NCBI RefSeq assembly: GCF_037975245.1
Contig: NC_092569.1
Coordinates: 19,337,501-19,401,500 of the forward strand
Direction: 5' to 3'
DNA: 64,000 bases
From: Apostichopus japonicus
Lineage: Eukaryota > Echinodermata > Holothuroidea > Aspidochirotida > Stichopodidae
Shown: one piece after another, positions 6,247 through 56,286 of the stretch
Position numbering within the stretch: position 1 is the stretch's first letter
Layout of the letters: every line of letters begins with the position of its first letter
Position numbers and translations under genes: made by a program
Notes under the pieces: model-generated
What the model was told of the DNA's origin: nothing
Database searches by the model: none
What the model saw: the letters and a program-made list of their open reading frames with translations, nothing else

Positions 6247-6330
6247 ATGTGGATCCCAAGAAAGCTACGATTTCTTATACAATTTTGTTTCTTTGTCCTG
6301 TCAAGAAATATAATCTGTTTCCACGGAGAG
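6247..6330 (+). CDS. Gene A exon 1: signal peptide
   Basis: ATG at 6247 opens a basic N-region (WIPRKLR) and a hydrophobic core (FLIQFCFFVL), ending CFHGE before the donor GTGAGT at 6331. It is 28 codons, phase 0. The start was chosen because this ATG is the only one in frame, and the same exon is recognisable at gene C. Confidence 0.75.
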
Positions 6331-9300
6331 GTGAGTACATTTCTTTCATTCTATTATTTCAGACTTTTTGTAATTTATTTTATTATAAAATTGTGGTTAT
6401 TATATAACTAATTTAATGGTAATTTTACCTATTTCAATAAATAAAATGTTAAATATCATTTTACTTATTCCAATGTATTAAATAGTACTAAATATTTCCT
6501 TCGGTGAGGTAGATTTTAAATCCCGTTAGTTTTTCTGCCTTTAGTTGGATTTTAACTTTAACAAATTTCATTAACTATTCTCAACAGGCTTCCTAAAAAA
6601 TACCAAAAACCAAACCCAAACCAAATGGGTTCCTAAATGTAGAACCACAGCTGTGTGTGTAGTTTTTATTAGTTGTCATCCCCAAATATAGGGAATACAT
6701 TTGAAAACAGAAATCATTTTTAATTTGATTTCCAGATATGAAAGCTATATGTATGAAAAACACGCGGTATTTAAAGTGATGTGAAAAGTGTAAAGTATTT
6801 TGTGTTGGCAGTTTTATATATAGTTGTCATCTCTCAGTATGTATAGGACATGCACGAGAAATTAAAGTCATTTCTATTTTTTGAATGGAATTCAAGAAGT
6901 TAAAGCTAGTCGTGACAAATACATGGCATTTAAAATTTTGTCCTCTTTGAATATGCATTTTTAGGAACTATTACTAAAAAAACTTTCCTGATTATTCTAA
7001 ACAAAATTCTGTATAGTATAGAGACTGTAAAATTTCACTCGCGTCACAGACCGTCATTTAAAATAATGTAAAGATCGTAGTTTCATTTATTTCTCTCAAT
7101 AAGTTTGTGTGTGTGCAACTTGTATATTGTTGTCATCTCGCAATAAAGATCCAAACTGGTCAAAAATGATTTAATTTTTAGATCTATTTCAATTGATTTC
7201 CAGAAATCAAATCTAAGTACAACACAAACATGTTATGTAAACCTCGCTCTCGTTGGACAAGCAGTTGTACAATCTATCCCCCATAAAACGGCAAACTCAC
7301 TGCTGTTTGATATTCTTTAATAGTGAATTTCTATTCTTCCAAATTAACAGACTTAAACTTGGCTTTTAAAAGCTATATCATATATCTTTATGTTCATTAG
7401 AGTTCTCTAAAATACCAATAAAAGTATATTATTTAGCTTGATTGTGAGATATTGAATAAGTCAATTCTTTCAATTATTTATCAAATCTGATTGCGATTGA
7501 TCAAACAAAGACATCTGTCTAGAGCCTGCTGCTATTTTACATTAAGAGTAAATAAAATCTCATCTCGTCCATTCTGAGAAATTTAAGTGCCTGTCACGTT
7601 ACTATTGTTTCTAACCACACCAAACTCAGACGAAACTTGATTGAGTGAATCAAGTTCAAACGACTGTGACTTCAGTATTATCGTAGCCTTATAATAAAAA
7701 AAAAAATGTATTCAAAATGTTGCATTACTTTATAATTAGCGGGCATACATTTTTTGAACTAGTTAGGATCAATTTTACCAAATTTCAAATTAAATGTTCC
7801 TGAACTATGTTGTATATATATTCAATATATATTCTAGACTACTATAATTAAAAATGTCTAGGAATGACCCCAAAAAATGAAGAAGAAGATGGAATCGCGA
7901 GGAATGTATAATGATTGAATTCCGAAAGTGTATGTAAATTAAAACAGTCATGACTATATTTCTCAAACAGATCAATCTAGAATACAATTATTTCATAGAA
8001 ATTAAATCAAATCAAACATATTCCATCTTTTTATTTTTAAGATCTCAATTTGTTCAACTTTAGGTTTGTGTCGACTTCATGTAAACAATTACTCCGTTAA
8101 TACTTTTCGTTGAGTGCGCAGTTTATCTACTCAATAATTTTACTTGCATTTTCGTCACTTGAAATTACTCATACAATTCCGTCAAACATCTTTAACTTTA
8201 AGAATAACTTACATTGTCAATCCATTCTTCGTTGTCACGATAAAGTAATCTACAAAATATTAAATATAAATTTACCCCCTCCCCCTAAATCAAATTAAAA
8301 AAGTAAGACAGACAGGTGGTATCATAAAAGCGATGTCGTAGATAGAACGGTTTTTAGTACAGTAACAAGATCGCTGATTCAATCCGTTGTAGACGCTATT
8401 TTCACATTGGTAAAAGTATCTTTATCTTCAAACGCTCTTTACCTAATTCCAAATCCAAAAAAAAAAGAGAAACAAACGCTTAATGATTCTATTGAGCTAC
8501 AAATTCTAAGGTAAACGACTATATATCATTTAGACTGTTGTCAATCAACTAACAGCGTTAAAATAGTTACTGTGTTAATATTGTCATAGTGTATCTTACG
8601 ATAATTGATGCTTAATTCCCACACCAAGGAAGTAGACCTCGGCTTAATTCATTGCTTCAAAACACAAAATTTGAAGAGAAATCTATCTAGCGATTGCGTT
8701 TGCATTTGGTTAATGTATAAGATAAACGGTTCTTTATAATCGGCAAATTTAAAAAGACAATGTAGAAACACTGTAATTCATATTTAGTTCTATTTTTAGC
8801 AGTTCGAGATAATGAGTACAAGAGTTTATTGTGTGCTGTAACGGCGTTCTTTAGATTGAAAAGTTAAACTTCGGGTGAATGTCAATGTATTGCATTGAAG
8901 TAACGTTTCCAATGGGTAATCAAAGGATATTTAAATCTTAGTTGAAAACGAATCCGAACTCTTAATTTGTAATTATTGAAATTACTAATGAGTTTAAAAT
9001 GAGAGCAATAAAATAACTTAATGAAAACTGTTAAACGCTGATCAGCATAACGAAAATTATATTTCTGAAGAACAGAAACTATGGTATATTGATAATATTA
9101 TCTTTATTTTCGTGTACTTAGTTCAATAAAATACTTAAAGCAAATTTTAACATATTCATTGTAAAATGTATCAATTTTTTTCAAAAATAATAATAATAAT
9201 AATAATAAAATAAACTCTCTCTGATTTGGCCTTCAACATTTTTTGGAATATACACAAATTAACACAAACCATTCATTGTACTATTTTCTGCAAACAAAAG

Positions 9301-12300
9301 TTAACATAATTTCTTTTTACTTAGCTCAATGATCCCAACGCATTTCAACATGCAACATTTTATGACTTTTAGAACATTTATGACTGAACTCAATTCCAAC
9401 TCCTAATACACTAGCTTTACCTCAATCCTCGCTGTTATTACTCAAGTAAAGTATAAAGAAGTATTTGCCATTTGCAGGAAATAAGCACAGCCGACTCAAT
9501 TTCGTATATATGCCCTCGTAGTTTACCACTGAACATAAATTATAAATAAGTTAACGACATGTTAGTCAAATTAAAACTGTAGGGAAGAATATGTTGACTA
9601 TATTTATCGCTGATAACATATGCATGATGCTTTTAATATCCTTTACTCAGAGTAATCAACAACTCTTTGTAGGAGCGACTGAAAGCAAAGTTCACAGTGA
9701 GTGTTTATTCATTTTCTATGATTTAACGTTTTTCTTATGTTTTTTCAATCTCCTGTTCATCGTACAATTTCTCATTGACTGATATTTTTATTCCTCATAA
9801 TCCATGCCAAACATTTGTCACGGCAACATCCGTTAAACTTGTTATGATCACTTACTCTCGTGTAATATGAGAAGAGAAATATTCCTTCTACTTATTACTT
9901 CCTTCAGTCACGAGCAAGAAAAACATTTCGACATAAGAAATAACGATAGTTTTTAATAAATCTTCGACCCTATATATTTGAACTTTGTACACATATTGCA
10001 TGATAAAGCCTTTAATTATTTGTCAACATATTGTACGGTTCACGTTGTGAATTAGTAAAGGATGTGTTAAATATTTGTCCATGAATGCGCTCATTTTTTA
10101 TAGCAGTATTTTTATCACTTTATATAAAAACTATTTAAAAGGTTATTTACATTTGACTGCTAAACTTGCAGATTATCTAAGCAACCTTGTGAAATTATCA
10201 TTCACGTTTTTTTTATCGTGTATTAGTTGCAAATTGTGTACCAAATATTAGCTTTCATACATTTCTGTCACATATGTTCCAAGATTATAAATTTTGTACA
10301 AAAGTAAGAAACCTAAAGTAAACTTTTTTTTTGGAAAGGAAGTGATGTCTGAATTGAGTTTAACTTTCAAAAGCAAATTAGTAATAAATTATGTTATTAT
10401 GTTTTTCGGGATAACCTTTGATATTTTTTTATAGTATATCCGATAGTAAAATCATTTTAATTATTTTCATAACTTTTACTAAGCTTGAATGTCCCGTTTA
10501 GTTATTATTTTTTGTGACTTTTCTACAATTATTTAGATAAGTGTCGTTGTGACGAAATTTTCAATAAATTATCGATTTATAAAATATCACTGACAGTTCA
10601 AGACATGTCAAGGCAAACCAGGCTATCATTTATCATATCAATTGTCACCGGTATATGTGGTAAAATTGATCAATAAACTAAAAAGGCAAAACGTTCATCT
10701 AAGTTAATAAAGAAATATGCTTCCATATTGCGTCTACTGACGGGTTCAAAGTCATATTTTCTGTTAAAACTCATGTTGTACCGTTGCAACTCATGTCTTA
10801 CTATTGCACTCTTGCTCTTGGTGTGTTCATCTAGCATTAAGTCGAGATGAAACATAATTATTGCTTAATTATTCATTTTGGGTTTACTAATAGGTATCAT
10901 TCATGGATAAACTTCTGTCGTTACATGATAACCTAAAGACAAATCTTGAAGACAACTGAGTTCTCATGATATCAGAATCACTACTTGTTCTTCTTTTACA
11001 GACTATTTTTTCCTTTATCAACGTCCTGAATACCCTAGAGATTGTCACGAAGTGTTGCATCGTTGTTCATCTACAAGTTCCAGTGGTGTTTATCTCATTA
11101 AACCAGACGGTTATGCCGAACCTTTCGAAGTCTACTGTGATAACACCGTAGAGGATGGCGGATGGACGGTACGTAGTTCAAATTGAATTATGAATGTTGA
11201 TGCCAAACATCAGCCAGATATTCAGCTTCTTTCACATCAATGAGCAAGTTTTATAATGTTAGCCCTCATGTTTCCTTAATACTTTAAATTATTTTATGAT
11301 CGTGTTTACTTTTTCATCCTCTTTTCATAAAATTCATTTAAGTTGATCACAATATACATTTCTAACTAAAATACAAAGAAAATTGTACTTTTTACCATGC
11401 TATAACTCGTTTCATTTGTCATCCTTTCCATAATGTATCTGAATATGCATATGAAATACTTCTTCACCCAGATGGTCAGCTTCTTAAGATCTTCAAATGG
11501 GATTGCTTCTGTAGTGGCTAACAATCTGCCATAGATTTAAACTTTTATGTCACAAAATAAAGAACAAAACATTGTTTGAAACGTTAATGAATGGTAAGTT
11601 TTAATAATAATTCTAATTTAACTTAATATCTCGTATGAATTATGTTCAAATTACTTGTTCTGTTATGCAGATCATACAACGTCGGTTTGACGGAACGATT
11701 AATTTTAATCGCAGCTGGGAAGATTATCAGCTAGGATTTGGTTTTCTTTCGAGTGAATTGTGGATCGGTAATAAGAGGCTTTCATACTTAACCAATCAAA
11801 AGAGATATCAACTCCGTATCGACTTGACGACAACAGATGGTTCGTCTTTTTATGTGACGTATGACACATTCCGAATAAGCGATGACTTCAGCAACTACAA
11901 GCTCGTCAAAGCAGATATAACCAACAGAACAGTAGGTAAATATATAGAAAACCTTTCAGATACGTTTATTTATGTCCCAAATAAGTCTTATCTGGTCGAT
12001 CGAAGATTCGATATATATGAAGAAATAAGGATGCAGGATTTCGAAGGATATCACGAATTTCAAGCTAACTAAAGTTGTCACGATTAAGGAGTGTGATGAT
12101 ACCTTCGTCAATATTCAAGCTTATCAATTTTTTGTTTTGTTTACTTCCCTTCACCTTAATTCGTGTTTCTATTATTATACACTGTTTTTGTTGTGTATAA
12201 TGTGAAGAAAAAAATTAACACAATGAACTAAATTGAACTTACTAATTAACTCCCATAGTTACATCCTTCTGTACAGCCTATGTCTACAGCTATATCATCT

Positions 12301-15300
12301 CCTAAGCCTAATCTTCATCTAATCTATTCATTTTATTTTTGCTTTATTCATTGTTTTTTGTCTAATTTAGCCAACTGCCTGTCCAACTGACTTGTTAAAA
12401 GTCAGTTTGAATTTTCAAATTATAAATCTGTCTTCGTTTCAGTTTGTCTCTGACGAAGATCTAGCTAGGATTGATAAGCCAGGCCCTCTCACTTATTCAG
12501 TTTACGAAATTGTATTTGATCATAAGCTAGACTAAAGTCAAGTATCATTTCAAAATATTTTCGCATCAACTAGAACGATCTTGAAATGTCACAGTTCCTT
12601 CTTGCGTGTTAATACTTTTATACAAAGTGGTGTCGTTGTGGAGTAGAAAAACTCAGACTCAGAACATATTTCGTAATTTATAGAAATTGTCAACCAAACA
12701 CCAAACCACTGCTTGAAGTTATAACCCTTTATTAAGCCAAGTTCGTTATGTTTCGTTACAGAGTTCATAATAAGAATAGCTAATATTTAAGTATATTTTT
12801 CTTATTCTCATAGGCTATGTAAATAACTACATTGAATGGTGTCCAACAAATAAAACCTACAATGAGTGTCAACTTTGCGAGGCTACCTGTGCAGATCCTG
12901 ATAGTTGTATCAATACTTCCTGCAAAGGATCTCATTCGTGTGTCTGTCCTGGAGGATTTTTGATGAACGATGATAACTGCATTAGAATAGAGGACTGCGG
13001 ATGTTACATCGCAAGTGAAACAGATGGAGAGAAAGGTGTATTGTTAAAAGTAAGTATTTTCTTTCAGATTGTGATATCTATTACCAACAGTGTAACAATT
13101 TAAATGATGCTTTCAAAAACTGGGGTTAGTGGATCGATTTGCATTTGCCTCTGACCTCTTCCAACCCGCACCCTCGTCAACTTTGGATATACACAATTTT
13201 GCCAGTAAAGTTAGGAAAACTGATATATCTTGTACGTGTTTGCAGTATTTCATCTTATCACTACTTGAAGAAACCTTTTCAAATCCCTAAAGTTACTTAT
13301 GATACGTGTAACGATTTTCTACTCTCCAGGAAGGAGGAATTTACGTCTCTCCAAACTGTGACAAGAAATGTTCTTGTACGAATAATCATCTTTCGTGTGA
13401 CGATAGTTATCAATGCGATTCTAACGCAGATTGTGAAGAAAGGAACGGTATTTTACAATGTTACTGTCCGCCAGGGTTTAGCGGAGACGGCACACAGTGT
13501 AGGCCTACAGGCGGCACAGTTCCTTCTGACTGTAAAGAACTGTACAACAATGGCGAGAGAACAAGTGGCGTTTATGAAATCAAACCCACCATTTGGCCTG
13601 ACTCTCCGTTTGAAGTTTACTGTAATATGTCTGACGGGGGAGGCTGGACGGTAAGTGTGACAGTTTTTCTTAAACCAGTGATCCGCAAGCTTTTAGGTAG
13701 ACGACACACAAGTCATCCATGAATACCAAACCACGACCCACCAGAGCCCAATTCCTCATAACGGACGTTCAAAATACATAAAACCTAGTTTGGATTGTGA
13801 ATATGATGTTCGATTTGATACCCGTAAGCTAGTTTAAACAACGTTGCTGTATGTAGAACACGGGATTAGGCTGCCCTTTAGACGGAGAAAGTTGAATGCC
13901 TAATTTATTGCCACTAGGAGCGCATTCCCTAAGAGGAAGCATTCTCTATGTTTTGTTAGTACTTTCAGGAATTTATTAGTAGAAACTTCACGAAACTTTA
14001 CATATTGGTTGTTCTTTGGATAAGGGTTGATTTTTTGTGTGTAATTTTTATATTAACGGGCAATAGTTATGGCATCAAAATATTGGTGGTGAGAACCACT
14101 TCTAAATGACTGTAATGATGTAATACATGTATGTTCCTTAAGAACTAAATATTTACGTTGATTGTTTTAGGTATTCCAGCGTCGCGTTGATGATTCACAA
14201 GACTTTTATCTTTATTGGGATGACTACAAGATTGGCTTTGGTAATCGAAGTCGGAACTTCTGGCTCGGAAATGAAAAGATATATAGCTTGACGAACCAAA
14301 GACAGTATGAACTCCGGATCGACTTAGTTGGCCGTTACGGCGCCCCTTACTACGCCAAATACGATTTATTTCGTATCAGTGACGAGAACGATAACTTCAG
14401 GCTAGATGTTGGAGATTATTCTGACGGAGATGCAGGTAGGTTAATTTCTGCCGAATTATCAATCATTTCCTGTTATTTTCGTCAGTTTGACATCATATAT
14501 CATGCTTATATCTCCCGAATTATCAATCCTATCATGTTATTTTTTTTTGTCAGTTTGACATAATATATATTGTTTATTTAAGAACGAAGTATGTAGTACT
14601 ATTTGTATGATATAATTCACTATCCAATCACTTACTAGTTTATACACAATGTTTTGTCTTTGGTGATGATTCGACGGCAGATCCTGGTGACTTACTGTGG
14701 TAATAGTTTGTTGATCCAAGGAAGGTGCATATATCTAGTAGGTAGAAATCTCTGGACAAATAGCTGGACCTTTGGACCTACGAACACTCAAAATCAAGAC
14801 ACTTCAGTTAGTATCATATAAACCCGCCATATCATACAGTACCTAATTATGTTTATACTTCTTTGCATAAGGCACATACATAGGGAAAAGATCAGTAATT
14901 TATATTCGACAAGATAGACCGAATACTAGCAGTAATTGTTAATGTTATCAGACATGTAATGTAACGACCAAATATTACAAATCCATACTCAAAAGGAAAA
15001 TATGGAAACATCACAGGGTAAGATGATTATGTACCCTACGCAAATCTTCATGCACACGTACAGACACACACGCGTGCGCACAAGCACAAACTTAAATATG
15101 CATATTGTATCATTGTACGGTGCTGGACTCCCGAGTAGCTCGTGTTTAGAGGGTACGATAACAGATCTTGACAATTGGAGTTGTTTTAAGTGGTAGGCTA
15201 ACAATTCTAGATATGAACGATTCGTTAAAGTTGATCTCTATTGATTGATTTATTTACTCCTTCTTCTATCAAATTTTTGTCAGCGATAAGTGATGTAAGC

Positions 15301-16372
15301 AAAGATATCACATTTATTCATACCGCCAGCATGCTATATAAAAGTAACGATGATGAGATTATTCTCGTTCGAATACAAAACAGATGCAGTCGACATGCGT
15401 GCTCGCCTAGAACAGCTACGTCATAAAATATCATTGTAGGTCATGTAAAAAAAGCTGACAGCATCAATTAAATATATTCTTAACTATTACATAGCAACAG
15501 TAAACCAAATACACCGTAGCTGTTCTTGTAAAGGAAAGCCGGATCATTGTAATATTGCACTGAATAGAAATGTTCTGCATGACAATTGTCCTCTATTCCA
15601 GTCTTGAAAACTTATAGATAAAAATAAAATCAGATGTAAGGATGACAAAACAAAGTTATTCAAAATGAGGACACATGAATGAACTTCCTTTAATTTACAA
15701 ACGGCCAGATCGGGGAACTCTTGCGGTACTTATGAATATTACGATGAAAGTAGTGCATACTTCGACCATGTCGGAATTTTTTTTATTGATGTCATCATGA
15801 AAGAAAATTCGTTACAAAAAAAAAAAAAACTAAACGCTTTCACAATATGAACAATAGTTCAACAACATAATAAGCCAAACATAATATTTGACAACCCCTT
15901 TCCCTCCCCCTTCCCTTTCTACATATTTTCGTGTTTAATAATCATAGATATAACACGACGTTTAGTTTAACACACGTTAATTAAAATCAAAATCACATTT
16001 AATATCTAATTGTTGGAAGAACATTTTGCTAAGTATACTGAATCGATGCAATGAACTAATTTTTAAATTTCTTTCTGTTTCTTCTTCTTTTGTTTTTATT
16101 TAACAGGTGATTCGCTGACCTATCATGATGACAAACCGTTCACTACACGAGACAACGATAACGATGACGTCGACTATAGTTATTTTAGCTCCGAAGGTAA
16201 CAATGGAGCCCGTTATTATGATGGTGCATGGTGGTACGGTGATTATTATTATTCATCTCTAAACAGTCCCTATGGGAGTTATTACTTTTATTGGTATAGC
16301 CTTCCAGGAAATTCTTATTATAACATAAAATTTACAGAAATGAAAGTTCGCGCAATCGATGAAGAACAATAA
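6247..16372 (+). CDS. FREP copy A: secreted half-FBG / TIL / TILa / EGF-like / FBG protein, eight exons
   Basis: Joined exons are 6247-6330, 9651-9696, 11002-11168, 11671-11935, 12814-13049, 13330-13650, 14171-14435 and 16107-16372. They total 1650 nt, all junctions are GT-AG, and all phases agree (0,1,0,1,0,0,1), giving 549 residues. Order: signal peptide (1-28); linker; FBG N-terminal half (about 57-187); TIL domain with ten cysteines (197-249); TILa-like segment (251-289); EGF-like (289-323); complete FBG (about 334-545). FBG hallmarks present are SGVYEIKP, GGGWTVFQRR, YWDDYKIGFGN, FWLGNEKI, YELRIDL, the calcium-site DNDND, GAWWY and the terminal KFTEMKVR. The canonical second disulfide is absent (G495, Y508). 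N-glycosylation sequons occur at NRS, NRT and NKT. By family it is expected to be a secreted lectin-like recognition protein; its ligand is unknown. It is the only copy with no visible lesion. Confidence 0.85.
9651..9696 (+). CDS. Gene A exon 2: short linker (SNQQLFVGATESKVH)
   Basis: The acceptor TTTACTCAG ends at 9650 and the donor GTGAGT starts at 9697. The 46-nt exon takes phase 0 in and gives phase 1 out, matching exon 3. The same exon occurs at 28460-28505 (B) and 52586-52628 (C, one codon shorter), so selection on it seems likely. Confidence 0.75.
11002..11168 (+). CDS. Gene A exon 3: start of first FBG domain
   Basis: This exon encodes the A-subdomain motif: DCHEVLHRC, SSGVYLIKPDG, PFEVYCD and GGWT. 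C58 and C89 correspond to the conserved first FBG disulfide. C65 is an extra cysteine with no partner in this half domain. The donor is GTACGT. Confidence 0.9.
11671..11935 (+). CDS. Gene A exon 4: middle of first FBG domain
   Basis: It continues IIQRRFDG, WEDYQLGFG, ELWIGNKRL, YQLRIDL and FRISDD, ending phase 1 at GTAAAT. No exon for the FBG C-terminal part (calcium site, WWY) follows. The next exon encodes a TIL domain, so the first FBG is only a half domain. Confidence 0.9.
12814..13049 (+). CDS. Gene A exon 5: TIL (trypsin inhibitor-like) cysteine-rich domain
   Basis: Ten cysteines at residues 197, 206, 209, 213, 219, 224, 230, 232, 243 and 249 match the TIL pattern (CPTNKTYNEC, CKGSHSCVCPGGF, CIRIEDCGC). 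TIL domains occur as protease inhibitors and as spacers in mucin, zonadhesin and FCGBP-like proteins. Here a structural role is more likely, because a TILa-like segment follows directly. Confidence 0.85.
13330..13650 (+). CDS. Gene A exon 6: TILa-like, EGF-like and start of second FBG
   Basis: Residues 267-288 (GGIYVSPNCDKKCSC) look like a TILa/VWC segment. The six cysteines at 289, 295, 301, 310, 312 and 323, with CYCPPGFSGDG, form an EGF-like domain. From D333-C334 the second FBG starts (SGVYEIKP, FEVYCNM, GGGWT). The donor GTAAGT falls at the same FBG position as that of exon 3. Confidence 0.9.
14171..14435 (+). CDS. Gene A exon 7: middle of second FBG domain
   Basis: It encodes VFQRRVDDSQDFYLYWDDYK, FGNRSRNFWLGNEKI, YELRIDL and FRISDENDNFRLDVGDYSDG. 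It has the same length (265 nt) and phases (0 in, 1 out) as exon 4, showing that exons 3-4 and 6-7 came from one duplicated FBG exon pair. Confidence 0.92.
16107..16372 (+). CDS. Gene A exon 8: C-terminal part of second FBG and stop
   Basis: It begins GDSLTYHDDKPF, keeps the calcium-loop acidic motif RDNDNDD, and ends KFTEMKVRAIDEEQ plus TAA. The middle is Tyr-rich (GAWWYGDYYY), and both cysteines usual here are replaced by G495 and Y508. The stop codon overlaps an AATAAA at 16368-16373. Confidence 0.9.
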
Positions 16373-16854: not shown

Positions 16855-17245
16855 CACGTTGATAGTAGTTTATAAACACGCCTAGCCCTAACTTTTTTTT
16901 ATAGTAGATATAAAGTACACCTTACCGTTATGTGTTTTTAAATACACCATGCCCTAACATGTTTTAAAATACGCCTAACTCTCACATGTTTATATAAGTT
17001 TGTAAATACGCTTACTCCCAAACTTATGTATAGTAGTTATGTAATGCACCTTACCCTAGCATATTCTTAAATACACCTTACCCTAACATGTTTTAAAATA
17101 CGCCTAACTCTAACATGTTTATATGTTTTTAAATACGCCTACTCACAAACTTATTTATAAGTAGTTATGAAATGCACCTTACTCTAGCACGTTCTTAAAT
17201 ACACTTTACCCTGACATGTTTTTAAATACGCCTAACCCTAATGTA
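16855..17245. repeat. Telomere-like degenerate tandem repeat downstream of gene A
   Basis: Units of roughly 28 bases resemble AAATACGCCTTACCCTAACA followed by a T-rich stretch. A higher-order period of about 137 bases shows in the two CACAAACTTAT / ACTCCCAAACTTAT blocks (near 17016 and 17142). Related repeats follow B and C. Confidence 0.75.
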
Positions 17246-20232: not shown

Positions 20233-20914
20233 TTACGTTAGCCTAAAAAAACAACTTAGACAGGCCCAATACAAATATACTGTATCATTTGGTATGTCTA
20301 GCATAGGCTTATACTAAGTGTATTGTCCTAGGATTTAACTTTCAGTGATGCGTTCCTTAGTCATACTTCATCCATAAGAATGACTGATGGTAATTATTGT
20401 AGAGCGAATGCGCGTCACAATATTGTATTCGTTAGATTAATCGTCCATTAGGCATTCGGTGCAAAGCACCGTATGTTCGTAAAATTTCGTTAACTAGGCG
20501 AGGTTACAGTAACATTACAGACATTACATAGCTTGTAATTGCATGGTGGCCCTTGTACTTTCTAGTTGGTATTATAGAAAAAAAACAGTCTTGAAAAGGA
20601 ACAGCCGTAATATACTTAACACTGGCCCAAAGTTAATAAGACTACATAGGCCTAGCTGTATTATCTGCAGTATTCTACTACAGTGCACTGTACTGTAGGC
20701 TAGGTATAGTAACGGATAGTTACGTTAATTTTAAGCTACCGTGTTAAGTAAGCACAGTGCAAACGCAAGTGCTGATGATAAGTTAGGCCTCATGTGCCCA
20801 CTGATGCAAATGTTATCAAAATTAGCTACATGACAGAAATGTCAGTTGCAGTTCGCCAATATAAATATCATACTAAAATAATAAGAAAGTTGTACTATTT
20901 ACCCTGCTAACCTT
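20233..20914. other. Intergenic stretch, nothing recognisable
   Basis: This AT-rich stretch contains AGGCCTAGCTG and a locally self-complementary segment (ACAGTGCACTGT near 20681). No coding pattern is visible. Confidence 0.5.
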
Positions 20915-21682
20915 TCAGTCGTCTGTGATAATGGCGTATATAATGGTGGGTGGACGGTACATAGTTTGAATTATAATATTGATGCCAAACATCAGCCGAA
21001 AATTCAGCTTTAACACCTAATGAGCAAAGTTTTGTACTGTGATCTTTCATGTTCCCCTAATCCTTTACACTATTTTATGATCATGTTTACTTTTTTTTTC
21101 TTTTTCATCTTTTTCTTTTATAAATTTGATCACAATGTACATTCCAAGCTAAAATACAAAGAAAGTTTTCCTATTTACTCTGCTAGAACTCGCTTCATTT
21201 GTTATTTTTTTTTCCAGAATGTATCTTAATATGCATATCAAATATTACTTGCATTCACTCCATTGACAAACTCCGAAACCTATAGTAGATTTTCAGACGT
21301 CATCAAAAATCCCACGGACACACCCAAAATTTCTTACGAACCACATTGGAGTTGACCACGAAGACTAGTTTAAAAATTGATTTGTTACGCAAACCATCCA
21401 AAAAAAGATATCCCTGTTGCCGTATGTAACATATGTAGGTACCAAATAGTCGACAAAACTTTGAGATTTTAAGATTGGCTTGATTTTTTGCTATTGTGAG
21501 GGCTTTCCCTAAGAGGAAACATTATATTAGCATATACATTTTTTGACGGGGGAGGGGGGGGGGGGGGTTGGATCAACAGACAAATATGAATGAACTCAAA
21601 ATATTGGTGGTGGGAAACACTTTCAAATTACTAAATGTCTGTATGTTCCTTCAGAACTGAATCTTTACGTCGATTGTTAGAG

Positions 21683-21884
21683 GTATTCCAGCGTCGCGTT
21701 GATGATTCAGAGTACAATTATCTTTATTGGGATGACTACAAGATTGCCTTTGCTGATCGAATTCAGAATTTCTGGCTCGGAAATGAAAACATATATATCG
21801 TGACGACCCAAAGACAATATGAACTCTGGATCGACTTTGTTAACCTTTAAGGTGATTCTTACTACGCCAAATACGATTTCTTTC
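21683..21884 (+). pseudogene. Relic D exon 7, first part
   Basis: It reads VFQRRVDDSEYNYLYWDDYK, FWLGNENIY and YELWIDF, then stops at TAA (21848-21850) where the other copies have an aspartate-glycine loop. Downstream YYAKYDFFRI is still readable before the LINE insertion. Confidence 0.8.
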
Positions 21885-22573
21885 GTATCTTGGATATTCT
21901 GCAATTCTAATTTATTGATGGAGAAGCACATTTCACACATTTGCAGATCTGGTTTTTGCCACCTTCGGAATACTAGTCGTCAGCTCAAAAACTGGTCCAT
22001 GATTTAGTTTCGTCGAGAATTTATTGGTGTGATTCACTGATCGCTGGACTTCCTATCTGTAAGTTGAAACCTTAAATTGGCGTTCAGAATACTGCCGCCA
22101 AAATTGTAGTTGAGGCTCGTGGTACGACCATATCACAGACATTTTTATCAGATTTCATTGGTTACCTTTTTGTTCAAAGAGTTTCAAATTATTGTTGTTA
22201 GTTGAAAAAAGCCCCTCATGGCCTAGCCCAGCTTTATTTATGTGAATTGGTTCAGTGGTTAGTTCCTGTTAGAAGTCTTCGCTCAGGTTCTATATATATA
22301 TATAGCGAAAAAGAAGTCTGTCACAGAGTCTAAGAGTAATGAAACATTTTTATGAGATTTTATATAAATATCATGCTTTTGATAATTTAGGTCCACGACG
22401 TTTCAACGCTTCTCCTCCATATGTCCGTTCTAGTCAAACTCATAACGTCTTTAAAAGTCGCATCAAAACACATTTATGCAAAATTCCTTTAATCTCTAAT
22501 TTGTGTACTTTCTTTCATGTTAAAAGTTTATTGAGTTTCAAAGATTCAACATTATTTTATTATTTGTAACATT
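21885..22573 (+). mobile_element. 3' fragment of a non-LTR retrotransposon (LINE) inside relic D exon 7
   Basis: Degenerate frames read like the C-terminal end of a LINE reverse transcriptase ORF: QNTAAKIV, then MA-PSFIY, then FNASPPYVRSSQ and FKSRIKTHL. These match the usual order of LQN-AA, HGLAP-YL and FK-LKTHLF. It is interrupted by a TATA microsatellite near 22291. The flanks TTCGTA (about 21885) and TTCGTA (about 22570) may be the target-site duplication. Confidence 0.6.
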
Positions 22574-23900
22574 CGTAGCAGTGACGAGAACGACAACGAC
22601 AGGCTAGATGTTGGCATGACGGAAATGGTATTTACTTCCCGAATTATCAGTCCTTACCGTCAATGTTGCATCATATATTATGTTTATTGAAAAACAATGA
22701 TAACAATAAATATATATATATATTCATATTCTGTTTTGTCCCTGTGGAATATGAGCTTATTAAGAAATTGAATGTAGATTCTGGTAATTTGTACTTTAGT
22801 AATTTTTTGTGGATCCAGATAAGGAGATACCTGTTGTGCAAGAAGACTAATTTATACTTGTTATGAATATCTCTCCGGCCAAATATCTAGTAGACCATTG
22901 CACCTATCAAAAATTCAGGCTTTGAAAATTAAGTCACTTCAGTTAGTAACATAAAAACCCATCATATTATTCATAACCAAATTATTTATTTTATTCTTGG
23001 CAAAATGCAAAAACAAAGTGAAAAGATTAGTAACCACACGCATTCGAAAGAAAGATGGAATATTCATAGTTATTTTGAATGCAATCAGACATGTAATTTA
23101 AGAGCCAATCATTTTACAAATCTCTTACCCAAAAGGAAGATACTGAAGTACCACAGTGCAGAATGATATGTACCATACGCAAATCATCACACACACGCAT
23201 ACGCATACGAACAACCAAAACCATGCGTGTGGTATACCGTACCTGTTCTTGCAGAGGAAAGCCGAATCGCTTGTAAGCAACAACTTACATTCTTGACTAG
23301 AAAAACGTCGTCTTAAAATATCATTGTATTGGAAGGATTAAACTTTTGTCATGTAAGAAAAGAGGGCGTAAAGGTGTCCATATCGTAAATTAAATATATT
23401 ACAGACTATAACATGACAATGGGCATAGGCAAATATACCGTACCTGGTCTTGTATAGGAAAGCCGAAAGTGGAAAATTTTCTTCTACTCCCCGTTTTTAT
23501 AGAAACGTATAAATAAAATAAATAAAGGCTATATAAAACACAATATAGATCACAAACTAACCTGCAGAAAATGAGCACACACGAATGCACTTCCTTTAAT
23601 TTACAACAGACCAGATCAGGGGTCTCTAACGTTACTTATAAGTATTATGTTGTAAATAGCGTATACCTCGATCATGTAGGTAATTAACTAAAGAATTAAA
23701 CAATATTAGCAATAGTTCAGTAGCATAACAAAATATACATATGTCTACATACATACAGGAGTTGATAATCCCTTCCCATTTCTGGTATTTCCGTTTAGTA
23801 ACGATAAAAATAGATAACACTCCACGTTGTTCTCACACTTCTCAATAAACATTTGTAATAAAAAATATTTTTTTGCCAAGGTGCATGGTAGTGCATTGAC

Positions 23901-27638: not shown

Positions 27639-29596
27639 ATTTTCGTTTGTTCGTTAGATTTAAAAGTAAACCTTCGAGTGAATGTCAATGTATTGCATTG
27701 AAGTAACGTGTACAATGTGTAATCAAAGGATATGCAAACATTAGTTGAAAACGAATCCCCACGTTTAGATTGTCATAATTCGAATTTGGATAATTCTCTT
27801 CAGTTCTTATTTGTTCAGAGCAATACAAGAACTTACTAAAAATTATTAAACATTGATCAGCATAAAGAAAGTCAGAAGTCTGAAGAACAGAAACTTCGGT
27901 AAATTGATAAAATTTTATTTTTCTCGTTGCATTTTGGTATACATACTTCAATGAAACTTAAAAGCAAATTTTTACACAGTTCGCTGTCAAACATAATATT
28001 TTGTAAAAGGAGAGAAGTAAAGAAACTCTCTCTGATTGGCCCTTCTAATTGTTCAGAATATACACAAAATAACAAAAAAACATTTATTGTACTATTTTCT
28101 GAGAAGAAAACTAAACAAAGTGTTTTTTAAGTATATTTAATGATCCCAACGCATTTCAACATGCAACAATTTAAGAATTTTAGACAATTTAGGACTGAAC
28201 TCGATTCAAACTCCTATACAATAAGCTTAACTCAAACCTAGCTGTTATTACCCAAGTAAAGTATAGGAAAGTATTCGCCATTTGCAGGAAACAGGCACAG
28301 CAGATTCAATCTAGTACACATATGACCTCATAGTTCACGACTGAATATAACATGTAAATAAGTAAAGCACGAGTGAAATTGAAAATTTAGGAGAAAATAT
28401 GTTTACTATATTTATCGCTGATAACATATGCATAATGCTTTTGATTCTCTTTTACTCAGAGTAATCAGCAACTGTTTGTAGGAGCGACTGAAGGAAACGT
28501 TAAGAGTGAGTGTTTATTCATTTTCTATTAATTAACCCTTTTCTTATATTTTCTGTTTCCTGTTAATCATACAATTTCTCATTGATTAATATTTTCATAT
28601 CTCATACTCCATGACAAACATTTGTCACGGCAACATATGTTACAATTGTTATGATCACTAACTCTCGTGTAATATGAGAAGAGATATATATTTGTATTTT
28701 ACTTATTAATTCCTTCAGTCACAAGCAAGTCAATACATTTCGAACGTAGGAATTAACGACAGTTTGAACAAATCTTCGACAATATATGTTTGAAATTTGT
28801 ACACAAATTGCATGAGAAGGCTATATATCAACATATGGTACGTTACACGTTGTAAAATAATAAAGGATGCTCGGTGGTCTTAAATATTTGTTAATTCATG
28901 GTTTCATGTTTTTTTCTCAGTATTTTAATCAATGTATATAAAAGAATTTAAGTTTATTTGTATGTTGCATATATTGCATATGTTATTTATATATTTTGCA
29001 ATTTGTGCACCAAACATTAAGCTTGTGTACATATACATCACACATGTTTCATGATTTTTTTCCGTACAAAGTAATAAACCTGAAATAAACTTTTCTTGAA
29101 AAGAGTTGTAATGTCTGAATTGAGTTTTACGTTCAAAAGCAAATTAGTAATAGTTTATGTTGTCATGTAATTCAGAATGTACTCTTTTTTATTGTTTATT
29201 GTAGTACATCCCATACTCAACCTTCATTTTCATAGCTTCCACTTAACTTGAATTTTTCCGTTCAGTTCAGAATTGACCATCTATTATTTGTTTAACGTTA
29301 CAACAGCTATTTGGAGAAGTGTCTTTGTGAAGAAGTTTTCAGTAATGTATTGATTTATAAAATATCACTAAATTTTCAAGACTAGTGAAGGAATACCAGG
29401 CTATCTTTTATCATATCAATTGTAATAGTATTTTGAAAAAAAAACGTTATATTTAGTAAAACTTATCAATCAACTAAAAAGCAAAACGTTCCTCTAAGTT
29501 ATATAAGAATGCGCGTCTCTATAGCGTCTAATGACGGGTTCAAAGTCATTTTGTAATACTATTTTGAAAAAAAAAACAACCTCGTGTCTTACTATT

Positions 29597-30170
29597 GCAG
29601 TCTTGCTCTTGTCTGCTGCAGTCATGTATGTTGCAGTCATGTCTGTTGCAGTCATGTTTGCAGCAGTCATGTTTGCAGCAGTCTTGTCTGCTGCAGTCTT
29701 GTCTGCTGCTGCTGCTCTTGTCTGCTGCTGCTGCTGCTCTTGTCTGATGCAGTCTTGTCTGCTGTAGTCTTGTCTGCTGTAGTCTTGTCTGCTGCAGTCT
29801 TGTCTGCTGCAGTCTTGTCTGCTGCAGTCTTGTCTGCTGTAGACTTGTCTGCTGCAGTCTTGTCTGCTGCAGTCTTGTCTGCTGCAGTCTTGTCTGCTGC
29901 AGTCTTGTCTGCTGCAGTCTTGTCTGCTGCAGTCTTGTCTGCTGCGGTCTTGTCTGCTGCGGTCTTGTCTGCTGCGGTCTTGTCTGCTGCGGTCTTGTCT
30001 GCTGCGGTCTTGTCTGCTGCGGTCTTGTCTGCTGCAGTCTTGTCTGCTGCGGTCTTGTCTGCTGCAGTCTTGTCTGCTGCAGTCTTGTCTGCTGCAGTCT
30101 TGTCTGCTGCTATTGTCTGCTGCAGTCTTGTCTGCTGCAGTCATGTCTGCTGCAGTCTTGCAGTCTTGCT
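29597..30170. repeat. 15-bp minisatellite in gene B intron 2
   Basis: About 38 tandem units of GTCTTGTCTGCTGCA with variants (TGCGG, TGTAG, ATGTCTG). Since the unit is a multiple of three and has no stop in several frames on either strand, it creates long artificial frames, SRQDC repeats on the minus strand and VLSAA or SLVCC repeats on the plus strand. It lies between exons 2 and 3, has no splice or start context, and should not be annotated as protein. Confidence 0.95.
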
Positions 30171-33100
30171 ATTGATGTGTTAATTTAGCATTAAGCCGAG
30201 ACGAAATATATGATTGTTTAATTAAACCCATTTTGGGTTTACAAATCTGAAATATTCATGGATAAACTTCTGTCGTTACATGATAACATAATGACAAATC
30301 TTGAAGACAACTTTGTTCTCATGATATCTGAATCGCCCCTTGTCCTCCTTTTACAGACAATGTTTTACTTTATCAGCGTCCTGAATACCCAAGAGAATGT
30401 CACGAAGTGTTGCATCGTTGTTCATCAACAAGTTCCAGTGGTGTTTATCTCATTAAACCAGACGGTTATGCCGAACCTTTCGAAGTCTACTGTGATAACA
30501 CCGCAGATGATGGTGGATGGACGGTAAGTAGTTCAAATTGAAATATGAATGTTGATGCCAAACATTAGCCTAATATTCAGCTTCTTTCAAATCAATGAGC
30601 AAAGTTTTAAAATATTAGCTAGTATATTTCCCTCATCGTTGACGTTCTTTTTAAACCAAACGATTAGCAGAAAATGCTTCAATAATATAACAATATTTGT
30701 ACTTGACATTTGAGAAATAACAAGCAAAGTCTGTGAAAAAAAGTCATTGATCGAAAGCTCAGCTGATGATGAACATGTTTACATTGTTTGTTTACGTTTT
30801 TCATAAAATTAATATTAAGTTGATCCCAATGTATATTTCATACTTAAATACGAAGAAATTGTATCTCTCATGACTTATGTTCAAATTACTTGTTCTGTTA
30901 CGCAGATCATACAACGTCGGTTTGACGGATCGATTAATTTTAATCGCAGCTGGGAAGATTATCAGCTAGGATTTGGATTTCTTTCGAGTGAATTGTGGAT
31001 CGGTAATAAGAGGCTTTCATACTTAACCAATCAAAAGAGATATCAACTCCGTATTGACTTGACGAAAACAGATGGTTCGTCTTTCAATGTGACGTATGAC
31101 GCTTTCCGAATAAGCGATGACTCCAACAACTACAAGATCGTCAAAGCAGAAATTACTAACAGAACAGTAGGTAAATATATAGAACTACTTTATAGTACGT
31201 TTATTCATTTCTAAATAAGTCTTGTCTTGTCGAAAGAAGTTTCGATATATGTGAGTAAATAAGGATTGCAATGGATATGAAAAAAATTAAGATGACTAAA
31301 ATGTCACTATTAAAGAGAGTGATGATACCTTTATCAATATTCAAGCCCGAACGGGTTCTTAAGTTTACTTCTCTCCGCCTTATTTCTTGTTTCTACTACA
31401 CTGTGTTTGTTGTGTATAATGTGAAAACAACCAGCATACTGAACTGAACTGAACTTACTAATTATTCCCCATTTTGTAACATCTTTCTGTACAGTCTATC
31501 TGTTTAATTATATCATCTCCTAAGTCTGATCTTCATCTCATTAAGTTTTGCTTTATTCATTGTTGTTTATATAATTTAGTGAACTTTAGCGATAACATCT
31601 TGATGAGATCGTAATATAGTTTTGGTGATAATATCTTTATGGGAACGTAATATAGTTTTTATCAGTTACATTCACATTTGGAGTAATTCTGTCAAAATTG
31701 TCAACCAAACACAAAACCACTGCTTGTAGTTCTCACTCTTTACTTGCAATTAGCAATACTGGTTATGTTTACTTGCGAAGTTCACTAAATCAATGGCTAA
31801 TGTTTTTCATATTTTTTTATTCTGCTAGTCTTTGTAGATAACTACATCGAGTGGTGTCCAACAAATAAAACCTACAATGAGTGTCAACTTTGCGAGGCTA
31901 CCTGTGCTGATCCTGATAGTTGTATCAATACTTCCTGCAAAGGATCTCATTCGTGTGTCTGTCCTGACGGATTTTTGATGAACGGTGATAACTGCATTAG
32001 AATAGAGGACTGTGGATGTTTCATGGAAAATGAAACAGATGGAGAGAGGGGTGTATTGCCAAAAGTACGTGTTTTCTTTCAGATCGTGATATCTATTACC
32101 AATAGTGAAAATAATTTAATAGATGCTTTCAAACTGGAGTTAGTGGATCGGTTTGCATTTGCCTCCGACCCCTTGCAACCCGCATCCTCTTCAACTTTGG
32201 ATATACGCAGTTTTGCCAGTAAAGTTAGGAAAACTGATATATCTTGTATATGTATGCAGTTTTTCATCTTATCACTACTTAAAGAAACTTTTTCAGATCC
32301 CTAAAGTTACTTATGATGCCTGTAACGATTTTCTACTTTCCAGGAAGGAGGAATTTACGTCTCTCCAAACTGTGACAAGAAATGTTCTTGTACGGATAAT
32401 CATCTTTCGTGTGACGATAGTTATCAATGCGATCCTAACGCAGATTGTGAAGAAAGAAACGGTCTGTTACAATGTTACTGTCCGCCAGGATATAGCGGAG
32501 ACGGCACACAGTGTAGGCCTACAGGCGGCACAGTCCCTTCTGACTGTAAAGAACTGTACAACAATGGCGAGAGAACAAGTGGCGTCTATGAAATCAAACC
32601 CACAAATTGGCCTGACTCTCCATTCGAAGTATACTGTAATATGTCTGACGGGGGAGGCTGGACGGTAAGTGTGACAGTTTTTTTTCTTAAACCAGTGATC
32701 CGCAAGCTTTAGGCCGACGACACACAAGTTATCCGGAAGGACCAAACTACCACCCACCATAGCCCCATCCCTCAGAACGGACGTTCAAAATAAATTAGCT
32801 TGGATTGTAAATATTATGTCAAACAATGACTTGAAGATAATCAATCTCCATATACATATATCTGAAAACTCCACCAACATATATTTAAGACCCACGTTCG
32901 ATTTTACACCCGTAAGCAAGTTTAAACAACGTTGCCGTATGTAGAACACAGGATTAGGCTACCCATTAGACAGAAAAAGTTGAATGACTAATTTATTGCC
33001 ACTGTGGTATTACTATCAGGGATTTATTTTTAGAAACTTCATAAAACTTTACCTATTGGTTGTTCCCTTGAATGAGAATTGATGTTTTATTTATTTTTAT

Positions 33101-33219
33101 TTTGTTACGTGCAATAGTTATGACATCACAATATTGGTGCTGGAAAACACTTCCGAATAACTATAATTAATATGTATGTATTTTTCTTAAGAACTAAATC
33201 TTTACATTGATCATTTTAG

Positions 33220-33485
33220 GTATTCCAGCGTCGCGTTGATGCTTCACAAGACTTTTATCTTTTTTTGGGATGACTACAAGATTGGCTTTGGTAATCGAAG
33301 TAGGAACTTCTGGCTCGGAAATGAAAAGATATATGGCTTGACGAACCAAAGACCATATGAGCTCCGGATCGACTTTGTTGACAAAAATGGCGATCCTTAC
33401 TACGCCAAATACGATTTCTTTCGTATCAGTGACGAGAACGATAACTTCAGGCTAGATGTTGGAAATTATTCTGACGGAGATGCAG
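33220..33485 (+). pseudogene. Gene B exon 7 with frameshift
   Basis: It starts VFQRRVDASQDFYLF and meets TGA at 33271. After the extra T, the second frame gives WDDYKIGFGNRSRNFWLGNE and continues to the normal donor. Apart from this base the exon is highly conserved, which is why a sequencing error must be considered. Confidence 0.85.
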
Positions 33486-35190
33486 GTCGGTTAATATCTC
33501 CCGATTAATCAATCCCATCATGTTATTTTCGTCAGATTGACATCATATATCAAGTTTATTTTATAACGAAGTGTTTATAAAGAAGTATGTAATACTATTT
33601 GTATGAAGTCCACTAGCCAATAACTTACTAGTTTATACAAGCTGTTTTGCCTCTGTTGATGGTAGAATCTGGTTACTTACTTTGGTGATAATTTGCTGAT
33701 CTAAGTAAGGAGCATATATCTATAAGGAAGAATTCTCTGGCCAAATAGCTGGACCTTACGACCTTTGGACCTACGAAAACTGAAACTCAAGACACTTCAG
33801 TTAGTAATATATAAACCCGCCATGTTATACAGTACCTAATTAATTCTATACTTCTTTGCATAAGGCGCACACATAGTGAAAAGATTAGTTATTTATATTC
33901 GACAAGACAGACCGAATACAAGCAGTAATTTTTAATGTTATCAGACATGTAATGTAACGACTAGACGTTTTTACAAATCCATTACTCAAAAGGAAAGTAT
34001 GGAAATAACACAGGATAAGATGATTATGAACCATACGCAAATTTTCACTCATACGAATACACCCACGGGCGTGGGCACAAACAAAAACTTAAATATTGAA
34101 TATATTATCATTTCACTGGGCTGGAAACACGCGTAGCTCGTGTTAGAGGTTACGATAACAGATCTTACCCTCGGGAGTTGTTTTAAGGTGTAGTCTAAAA
34201 GTTCTATAAATTAAAGATACGTTCAAGTTGATCTTTATTGATTTATGTATTAACAACTTCTATCAAACTTTTGTTAACTTAAAGTGATGTAAAACATAAT
34301 ATCACATTTATGTACACCGCCAGCATGCTAGATAAAATTAACAGTGATGAGATTATTATCGTTCGATTACAAACCAGTTCCAAAGAATCAATCACAAATT
34401 GAGCCTTTAAATTCCCGACTAATCCAACCTACATGGATTCATGTTTGCTGGCCTGGGACAGCTACGTCATAAAATATCATTGTATTGGAAGGATTACATG
34501 TAGGCTAAGGGAGCTCACAGCATAAAATAAATATATTCCTAACTATTACATGACAACAGTAAACCAAATACACGGTAGCTGTTCTTGTAAAGGAAAGATG
34601 AATCACTAGTTTAACGCTGACACAGAGCTGATCTGTATGACAATTGTCCTCTTTTTCCAGTTTTTAACAACTTATAGATCAAGATAAAAACAGATTAAAA
34701 GATATTGATAACAAAAAAAAACATATCAAAAATGAGCACACATGAATTAACGTCCTTTAGTTTTCAAAATACCAGATCGGGGAGCGCTTGCGGTACTTAT
34801 ACAAATATTGTGATGAAAATTAGCCTTACATATACCTCGACCATGTAGGTAGGATATTATGGTGATGTAATCATCAAAGAAAATTCGTTACATATAGAAA
34901 ATCATCATAATCTAAACGCTTACACAATGTTAACAATGGTTCAACAGCATAACAAGCCATAAAAAGAAGTTGATAGCCTCTTTACCATCCCCTTTCCCTT
35001 TCTACATATTTCGTTTTTAATAATCATAGATAATACACGAATTTTAGTTTAACACACGTTAATCAAAACCACATGTTATATGAAATATCGTAATTACTGG
35101 GATAACATTTTGCTAAGTATACTGAATCGATACAATGATTAAATTTTGATTTTCTTTTCTGTTTCTTCTTCTTTTGTATTTATTCAACAG

Positions 35191-35465
35191 GTGATTCGCT
35201 GACCGACCATGATGACCAACCGTTCACTACACGAGACAACGATAACGATGATTATGACTTTAGTGATTACAGCTCTGAAAAGAACAACTTAGCCCGTATT
35301 TATGATGGTGCATGGTGGTACATGAATTATGACTATAATAATGATTATATTTCATCTCTCAACGGTCCCTATGCGAGTTATTCCTTTTATTGGAATACCC
35401 TTCCAGGTTCTTTTAATTACATTAAATTCACAGAGATGAAAGTTCGCGCAATCGATGAAGAATGA
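35191..35465 (+). CDS. Gene B exon 8: FBG C-terminal part
   Basis: It reads GDSLTDHDDQPF, RDNDNDDYDFSDY, GAWWYMNYDYNNDY and KFTEMKVRAIDEE plus TGA. It has an insertion relative to A and C after the WWY motif, and no cysteine at all. Confidence 0.85.
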
Positions 35466-35934: not shown

Positions 35935-36195
35935 GTTACACGTTTATAGTAGTTATAAAATACGCCTTACCCAAACAAATTAATTAAATAAGCCTTACCT
36001 TATAATTGTAACATGTTTTAAATACCTTAACTCTAACATGTTCATAGTAGTTATAAAATACGCCTTACTCTAACATGTTTTAAAATACAAATAACACTTA
36101 CTTATTTATAGCATTTATAAAATACGCCTTACCCTAACATATTTTTAAATACGCCTTAACCTAACATTTTTTTTAAATACGCCTAACATTAACAT
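35935..36195. repeat. Telomere-like tandem repeat downstream of gene B
   Basis: Repeated AAATACGCCTTACCCTAACA-type units with variants. It leads through a short spacer directly into block F copy 2. Confidence 0.75.
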
Positions 36196-36289
36196 GTTTT
36201 CAACGAATGTGTTTCAGGATACAATAAATACAACTTGTTTCTTCGATTTTTTACACATGCTTTTACGTATGTAATGTACTTTATTCGGA

Positions 36290-49238: not shown

Positions 49239-49321
49239 ATGTGGATCCCAAGAAAGCTACGATTTCTTGTACAAATTTGTTCTTTGTCCTGTCAAGAAAT
49301 ATAATCTGTTTCCACGGAGAG
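49239..49321 (+). pseudogene. Gene C exon 1: signal peptide exon with 1-bp deletion
   Basis: It starts MWIPRKLRFLVQICSL and runs out of frame because TGTTTCTTT in copy A is TGTTCTTT here. The donor GTGAGT is intact. Confidence 0.8.
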
Positions 49322-54447: not shown

Positions 54448-54712
54448 ATCATACAACGTCGGTTTGATGGATCGATACGTTTTAATCGCAGCTGGGAAGA
54501 TTATCAGCTAGGATTTGGTTTTCTTTCGAGTGAATTATGGATTGGTAATAAGAGGCTTTCATACTTAACCAATCAAAAGAGATATCAACTCCGTATTGAC
54601 TTGACGACAACAGATGGTTCGTCTTTTTATGTGACGTATGACACATTCCGAATAAGCGATGACTTCAGCAACTACAAGCTCGTCAAAGCAGATATAACCA
54701 GTGGAACAGTAG
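54448..54712 (+). CDS. Gene C exon 4: middle of first FBG half domain
   Basis: It is open and nearly identical to exon 4 of copy A (IIQRRFDGSIRFNRSWEDYQ, ELWIGNKRL, YQLRIDL). A SGT replaces the NRT sequon near the end. Confidence 0.85.
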
Positions 54713-55983: not shown

Positions 55984-56286
55984 GAAGGAGGAATTTACGT
56001 CTCTCCAAACTGTGACAAGAAATGTTCTTGTACGAATAATCATCTTTCGTGTGACGATAGTTATCAATGCGATTCTAACGCAGATTGTGAAGAAAGGAAC
56101 GGTCTGTTACAATGTTACTGAGACGGCACACAGTGTAGGCCTACAGGCGGCACAGTCCCTTCTGACTGTAAAGAACTGTACAACAATGGCGAGAGAACAA
56201 GTGGCGTTTATGAAATCAAACCCACCATTTGGCCTGACTCTCCGTTTGAAGTTTACTGTAATATGTCTGACGGGGGAGGCTGGACG
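55984..56286 (+). pseudogene. Gene C exon 6 with in-frame deletion creating a stop
   Basis: The 18 bases encoding most of the EGF loop (CPPGFSG region) are absent. The frame is preserved after the junction, but the junction codon itself is TGA (56119-56121). The downstream FBG part reads normally. Confidence 0.88.

Follow-up and report, generated by a model that had tools for sequence, protein, structure and literature searches.

The stretch analysed here, called the window, comprises 64,000 nucleotides of the sea cucumber Apostichopus japonicus (NCBI RefSeq assembly GCF_037975245.1, contig NC_092569.1, hereafter C9; C9:19337501-19401500) and was placed in its genomic context by searching 671,581,487 bases in 35 contigs. 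It carries copies A, B and C of a gene predicted to code for a fibrinogen-related protein (FREP) with two fibrinogen-like (FBG) domains, FBG1 and FBG2, the first of which is incomplete. Copy A (6247-16372, + strand) is composed of eight exons, all on the + strand, whose splicing is inferred from the sequence. Exon 1 (6247-6330) supplies the start codon and a hydrophobic stretch resembling a signal peptide (hydropathy up to 2.34 over 11 residues). It is followed by a 28-nucleotide (nt) linker exon (exon 2, 9673-9700), placed by its GT-AG borders and frame fit; an alternative donor 4 nt upstream would disrupt the frame. Exon 3 (11002-11168) codes for subdomain A of FBG1, which features a third, odd cysteine, and exon 4 (11671-11935) for its subdomain B, ending in phase 1 where the P subdomain should start. 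The TIL domain is encoded by exon 5 (12814-13049), a TILa/EGF_3 hybrid together with subdomain A of FBG2 by exon 6 (13330-13650), subdomain B of FBG2 by exon 7 (14171-14435), and its P subdomain and the stop codon by exon 8 (16107-16372). The seven introns are all GT-AG and the junction phases are, in order, 0, 1, 0, 1, 0, 0 and 1. The spliced frame has 1632 nt including the stop codon and codes for 543 amino acids with no internal stop. An earlier note on this DNA, made from its letters only, was right that the joined exons stay in frame but gave their length as 1650 nt.

A Pfam search of the predicted product finds partial Fibrinogen_C, TIL, TILa, EGF_3 and full Fibrinogen_C in the order that the earlier note had proposed, and the sequence thus bears out the order half FBG - TIL - TILa/EGF - FBG for copy A. 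Exons 3-4 alone match Fibrinogen_C with 132 bits over profile positions 2-125 of 221, in agreement with the proposal that they hold the N-terminal part of an FBG only, while the P exon (exon 8) alone covers positions 141-219. Because the first match ends before the region covered by the P exon, FBG1 is interpreted as subdomains A and B only, truncated at the very exon boundary that should lead into P. The best Fibrinogen_C stretch of the second domain, residues 325-537, spans profile positions 2-219 of 221 and is thus full length. The ten-cysteine TIL that had been placed after the half FBG was also recovered: exon 5 alone scores 29.8 bits against the curated cut-off of 24.5 for TIL (PF01826), its score in the whole protein lies just below it (24.2), ten cysteines are found inside the match and an eleventh beyond it. 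The suggested succession of a TILa-like and an EGF-like domain stood only in part. Both matches are present (TILa, 33.2 bits, residues 255-304; EGF_3, 31.9 bits, residues 286-317) but they overlap by 19 residues and share cysteines, so that they are best read as one hybrid module. No VWD or C8 match is listed for copy A, and no Pfam family up to an E-value of 1 corresponds to an immunoglobulin domain, as in the IgSF FREPs of molluscs, or to fibronectin III, as in tenascins.

The absence of a P subdomain from FBG1 does not appear to result from an overlooked exon. A search of the window with the P peptide (E<0.5) retrieves the terminal exons of copies A, B and C only and nothing between exons 4 and 5; a hidden P exon behind exon 4 was rejected on this basis. 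In addition, the intron between exons 4 and 5 has 270 nt in another copy of the gene (copy E) and about 200 nt in a locus of contig C20, too short to accommodate an exon of ~250 nt and two introns.

The FBG of ficolins is composed of subdomains A, B and P, with the M-ficolin ligand site in P near the calcium site (PMC3088710), and FIBCD1 features a Cys401-Cys414 disulphide with a cis peptide, His415 and an Asp393/Asp395 calcium site (PMC3908420); the available parts of both papers locate the calcium and ligand sites of FBG in P. In an alignment read by eye, two aspartates of the TRDNDND motif in the copy A P subdomain align with Asp393 and Asp395 of FIBCD1, while Cys401, Cys414 and His415 face Gly, Tyr and Tyr. 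The canonical NNCA...WWYxxC cysteine pair was found by eye in none of the 11 readable P exons of the gene array to which copy A belongs; the exons of copies C and J each contain two cysteines, but elsewhere. Since neither the canonical pair nor the histidine is kept, FBG2 is predicted to have a P subdomain without the textbook acetyl pocket. The view that the calcium site and pocket exist solely in the second FBG is therefore retained for P and its two aspartates but not for the canonical pocket residues. Copy A shares with FIBCD1, ficolins and tachylectin 5A an FBG with subdomains A, B and P and the two calcium aspartates; it differs from them by having no equivalent of Cys401-Cys414 or His415 and by the half FBG, TIL and TILa/EGF found upstream.

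The array spans C9:19.35-19.66 Mb and comprises 15 TIL exons, 81-100% identical to that of copy A, all on the + strand and 15-39 kb apart. Twelve copies were read over their full length, the three of the window (A, B and C) plus nine others, while L012, L013 and L021 were read only within 1.5 kb of their TIL; exon 3 of L021 is decayed. Half-FBG and P matches at C9:19511419-19515863, with no TIL between them among the matches listed, mark a sixteenth member. Exons 2-8 are found in order in all 12 copies read, exon 4 always measuring 265 nt and exon 5 236 nt, both with GT/AG borders, and exon 8 is in the same reading frame in 11 of them. The phase of the exon 4-5 junction is also 1 in the distant loci L025, L047, L048 and L049, where it was read by eye. 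Counterparts of exon 1 match that of copy A at 95-99% in copies C, D and J and at 93% in copy G; in copies E, F, I and K the frame is uninterrupted from exon 2 onwards.

The organization recurs well beyond the array. The best 150 genome-wide matches each for the TIL exon, exon 4 and the P exon were paired by position. For 81 of the 150 TIL matches, an exon-4-type match precedes the TIL in the same orientation at a distance of 183-2779 nt (80 within 882 nt); among the matches listed, none lies in the opposite orientation or, within 3.5 kb, on the downstream side. The exons of FBG2 score lower than those of the half FBG and are thus not among the best 150 exon-4 matches. Among the matches listed, no P match separates the half FBG from the TIL in any of the 81 pairs, so that the missing C-terminal exon is no more seen here than in the window, and in 45 of the pairs a P match follows the TIL, at 2.5-3.2 kb in 44 cases and at 8.0 kb in one. 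Four of the 69 unpaired TIL loci were read (L024, L052, L053 and L054) and three do have a half FBG, hence the number of pairs is at least 81; L024 had remained unpaired since its exon 4 match splits across two frames. Twelve distant loci were read altogether, L024-L028 taken among the best TIL matches, L047-L049 and L055 from the paired ones and L052-L054 from the unpaired ones. A half FBG lies upstream of the TIL in 11 of them, all except L052 on contig C15, where none is found within 4.06 kb; a half FBG upstream of every TIL was thus rejected. The P exon of L052 carries no canonical cysteine pair and has an SSLNSPY motif in common with the window family. Among the best 150 half-FBG matches, four meet a P match first, within 3 kb, and no TIL match; one of these four, L050, was read (see below). 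Locus L049 (C9:22483000-22489000) displays three consecutive TILa/EGF exons between TIL and FBG2, and the length of this region therefore varies. Judged from these loci, the half-FBG plan is a trait of a large gene family and not of one copy.

Two other gene structures would give the half FBG a different meaning. In the first, exon 8 is a P exon common to both FBGs and alternative splicing yields a short protein, in which the half FBG is completed, along with the long protein with two FBGs. Since phase 1 closes both exon 4 and exon 7, skipping exons 5-7 (822 nt) keeps the frame; the constant exon 4 length (12 of 12 array copies) and exon 8 frame (11 of 12) are compatible with such an event, and exon 4 of L025, L026 and L028 ends in ...Y-T-G-E-A-G before the donor, like an FBG continuing into P. 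However, exon 4 ends in ...ITNRTV in 10 of the 12 array copies (slightly different in C and E), unlike the ...DYSDGDA type of exon 7, and a TIL exon is found downstream of the half FBG at no fewer than 81 loci. A short form of this kind is considered unlikely. In the second structure there are two genes, exons 1-4 being a FREP remnant that ends at exon 4 or in intron 4 and exons 5-8 a separate TIL-EGF-FBG gene whose first exon is unseen. The exon 4 frame does continue for 45 residues beyond the donor in copies A and C, and L052 shows that a TIL-EGF-FBG gene with no half FBG in the 4 kb upstream exists, yet the extension is of only 14 residues in copy B, the frame of exon 5 has no ATG between the preceding stop and the exon, and exons 3-4 do not evolve like a remnant (dN/dS 0.25, see below). 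Two separate genes were not seen, and they are made very improbable by the conserved phase match between the donor of exon 4 and the acceptor of exon 5, which holds for all 12 copies as well as for distant loci.

Descent of the half FBG was addressed with a tree of 28 B-subdomain exons in which four array copies represent the twelve. The 10 half-FBG rows, which represent several subfamilies located on C9 and C20, group in one clade (support 99/97) present in 98% of the bootstrap trees; the rows of FBG2 and of other FBGs are not single clades. The tree assigns the half-FBG exons to one descent in this genome. Their nearest outside relative is L008 (87/80, below the program's mark for firm support), whose FBG is complete over the stretch read and has a P exon of its own ~2.1 kb downstream, the frame of which contains one stop.

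Constraint along the gene was estimated from the 12 array copies (11 for exons 7 and 8), the values being descriptive since pairs are not independent. dN/dS (95% bootstrap) is 0.25 (0.15-0.41) for exons 3-4, 0.43 (0.23-0.85) for exon 5, 0.27 (0.16-0.46) for exon 6, 0.49 (0.26-0.99) for exon 7 and 0.73 (0.44-1.23) for exon 8. Comparison of copy A with distant loci (L025-L028, L047-L049 and L053-L055) gives mean identities of 67% for exon 3 (n=8), 61% for exon 4 (n=10), 45%, 48% and 53% for exons 5, 6 and 7 (n=10 each) and 33% for exon 8 (n=6, the loci with a match). Mean similarity is thus highest for exons 3 and 4 and lowest for exon 8, and the family trait looks constrained in its half FBG. 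This bears on a third alternative, in which the structure is real but the half FBG is a functionless spacer that tandem duplication and gene conversion have copied along with the rest. The array copies are in tandem, so that the presence of the half FBG there is not independent, and several of them are broken. Nevertheless, in loci whose TIL exons share no more than 36-52% identity with that of copy A, conservation is on average highest in the half FBG, and the low dN/dS of its exons is hardly that of a spacer; we regard this explanation as improbable.

Copy A probably represents a single gene, functional by appearance, that codes for a secreted FREP; its half FBG would be a non-binding platform and its second FBG a variable recognition end. 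The polypeptide would be built, in order, of a signal peptide, a linker, FBG subdomains A and B without P, TIL, the TILa/EGF hybrid and a full-length FBG. The half FBG is not expected to bind ligand in the usual FBG manner because the calcium site and pocket lie in P. It would instead provide a conserved platform that serves for docking or, more likely, for oligomerisation via the odd cysteine of subdomain A. This cysteine is found in 12 of 12 array copies and in all nine distant loci whose exon 3 was read (L024-L026, L028, L047, L049 and L053-L055); subdomain A of FBG2 in copy A has only two cysteines. Exons 2-8 of copy A encode 25 cysteines, an odd number that makes an interchain bond a fair guess. 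The TIL-TILa/EGF part would form a disulphide-rich stalk. A TIL beside a TILa is more typical of structural modules than of protease inhibitors. The P subdomain of FBG2 would be the variable recognition end, a role to which its divergence alone points. The gene probably arose from one with a complete single FBG, of the L008 type, that lost its P exon on joining a TIL-EGF-FBG or an FBG gene.

Several observations, in addition to the frame-preserving skip of exons 5-7, weigh against this interpretation of copy A. Because the array copies are recent duplicates, they do not count as independent cases. Only A, D and G of the 12 combine all eight exons with an open frame. Exon 1 was not found in seven of the 12, the stretches read for E and K barely reaching its expected site, and copy H has an open frame but has lost the splice sites of exon 2. 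Copies B, C, J and M are broken. In the window, copy B (28482-35465, + strand) has exons 2-8 only, starting at 28482, 30357, 30906, 31829, 32344, 33220 and 35191; its exon 1 was not found and exon 7 carries a one-base frameshift. Copy C (49239-59036, + strand) has exons 1-8, starting at 49239, 52608, 53783, 54448, 55544, 55984, 56807 and 58777, with a frameshifted exon 1 and an in-frame stop in exon 6. Exon 6 of copy J contains a stop, as does exon 3 of copy M, whose exon 8 is also broken. Copies E, I and K have 26 cysteines, and dimerisation is a guess made from the odd number in copy A. The odd cysteine of subdomain A is not specific of half FBGs since L008, with its complete FBG, has it too; it may thus predate the loss of P. 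Exon 7 of L027 and L053 is more similar to that of copy A than exon 4 is. Finally, locus L050 (C9:23229500-23233200) has a half FBG followed directly by FBG2, without TIL or EGF, and L052 (C15:5086900-5094000) is the TIL-EGF-FBG gene lacking a half FBG, so that neither half FBG nor TIL is obligatory. Note that the FBG2 B exon of L050 has one in-frame stop.

The P subdomain of FBG2 displays a further source of variation in the loop between the GAWW(Y/F/H) and LNG motifs, which has 5 residues in FIBCD1 and tenascin-R. The loops in the window are GDYYY (copy A, 16107-16372), MNYDYNNDYI (copy B, 35191-35465) and CDYYD (copy C, 58777-59036). A fixed pattern parsed 44 of 57 P exons of this genome, giving loop lengths of 5-41 residues with 24 or more in 19 of the 44, a long-loop fraction that is not representative since 21 of the 57 (L056-L075 and L095) were picked from the best 150 matches to a long-loop query. 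Five of the 13 unparsed exons (L065, L070, L071, L072 and L074) are also long by eye. On C9, this variation in loop length was noted in the P exons of the relatives L048, L053, L054, L056-L075 and L095. The 19 long loops (24-41 residues) are rich in Tyr (29%), Cys (14%) and Ser (12.5%). Positive selection in the pocket was not supported in the array, where loop dN/dS is 1.46 with a 95% bootstrap interval of 0.50-7.0. The comparison of loop with flank in 14 long-loop relatives likewise gave no significant positive selection: dN/dS is 0.36 (0.18-0.69) vs 0.42 (0.25-0.71) in nine of them, 0.74 vs 0.65 in four of those nine, 0.59 vs 0.58 in the five others and 0.32 vs 0.28 in all 14, the loop alignment being uncertain. 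Loop length and sequence vary strongly and neutral or slippage-driven change is possible; the tyrosine runs could come from slippage of TAT/TAC codons. It is conceivable, as a tentative and rather doubtful extension, that the family forms a germline recognition repertoire with a half-FBG dimerising base, a TIL-TILa/EGF stalk and an FBG2 bearing a Tyr/Cys-rich pocket loop of 5-41 residues. The pocket loops would then be the FBG counterpart of the ultralong cysteine-rich CDR-H3 loops of antibodies, which the long ones resemble.

FBG proteins are usually described as ligand binders with their binding site in the P subdomain. Retention of subdomains A and B without P, at low dN/dS and across a large family, would mean that the FBG scaffold also serves purposes other than ligand binding. 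The half FBG would then be open to dissection as a module and would predict something definite, a disulphide dimer that binds no ligand. Copy A has the C-terminal full-length Fibrinogen_C of FREPs in general, while its first FBG is not complete. The TIL-TILa modules of von Willebrand factor, zonadhesin and FCGBP sit in VWD-C8 assemblies; copy A likewise has TIL then TILa but lists no VWD or C8, and its TILa overlaps an EGF. Tenascins combine EGF, fibronectin III and FBG, and copy A differs from them by the absence of fibronectin III. FREP-A of the sea cucumber Parastichopus parvimensis has a single FBG, and we know of no half FBG or TIL in it. This FBG protein, named in PMC2702171, is set beside copy A by description. 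Biomphalaria FREPs (IgSF and FBG; PMC7588048, as described in its available part) are diversified FBG proteins too, but copy A has no immunoglobulin domain. The FREPs of A. japonicus itself are reported to be concentrated on one linkage group, to include a tandem cluster of 21 genes on Scaffold75 and to be up-regulated in visceral regeneration (PMC5638244); the available part of that paper on the expanded family mentions no half FBG, TIL or EGF. Similarly, the order half FBG-TIL-TILa/EGF-FBG is not described in the accessible parts of PMC5638244, PMC13228809, PMC2702171 and PMC13428168, and the titles and abstract openings listed from the open-licence literature yield no FREP combining FBG with TIL and TILa/EGF and no FREP with an FBG without P; the earlier note, too, knew of no described FREP with this order. 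Automatic annotations of the copy A architecture may well exist in gene databases. Members of the family abound on a single chromosome of this animal, known for both regeneration and its expanded FREPs, and the pocket loops of their P exons are unusually diverse.

The remaining features of the window lie in or around its copies. A decayed FREP remnant composed of an exon 3-like and an exon 7-like piece is found between copies A and B (20900-22615, + strand). Units of the 27-base type TAAATACACCTTACCCTAACATG... are repeated in tandem downstream of copy A (16911-17241) and of copy B (36009-36200). The intron between exons 2 and 3 of copy B harbours ~37 copies of the 15-base tandem repeat TCTTGTCTGCTGCAG (29607-30160), which opens long frames in several readings.

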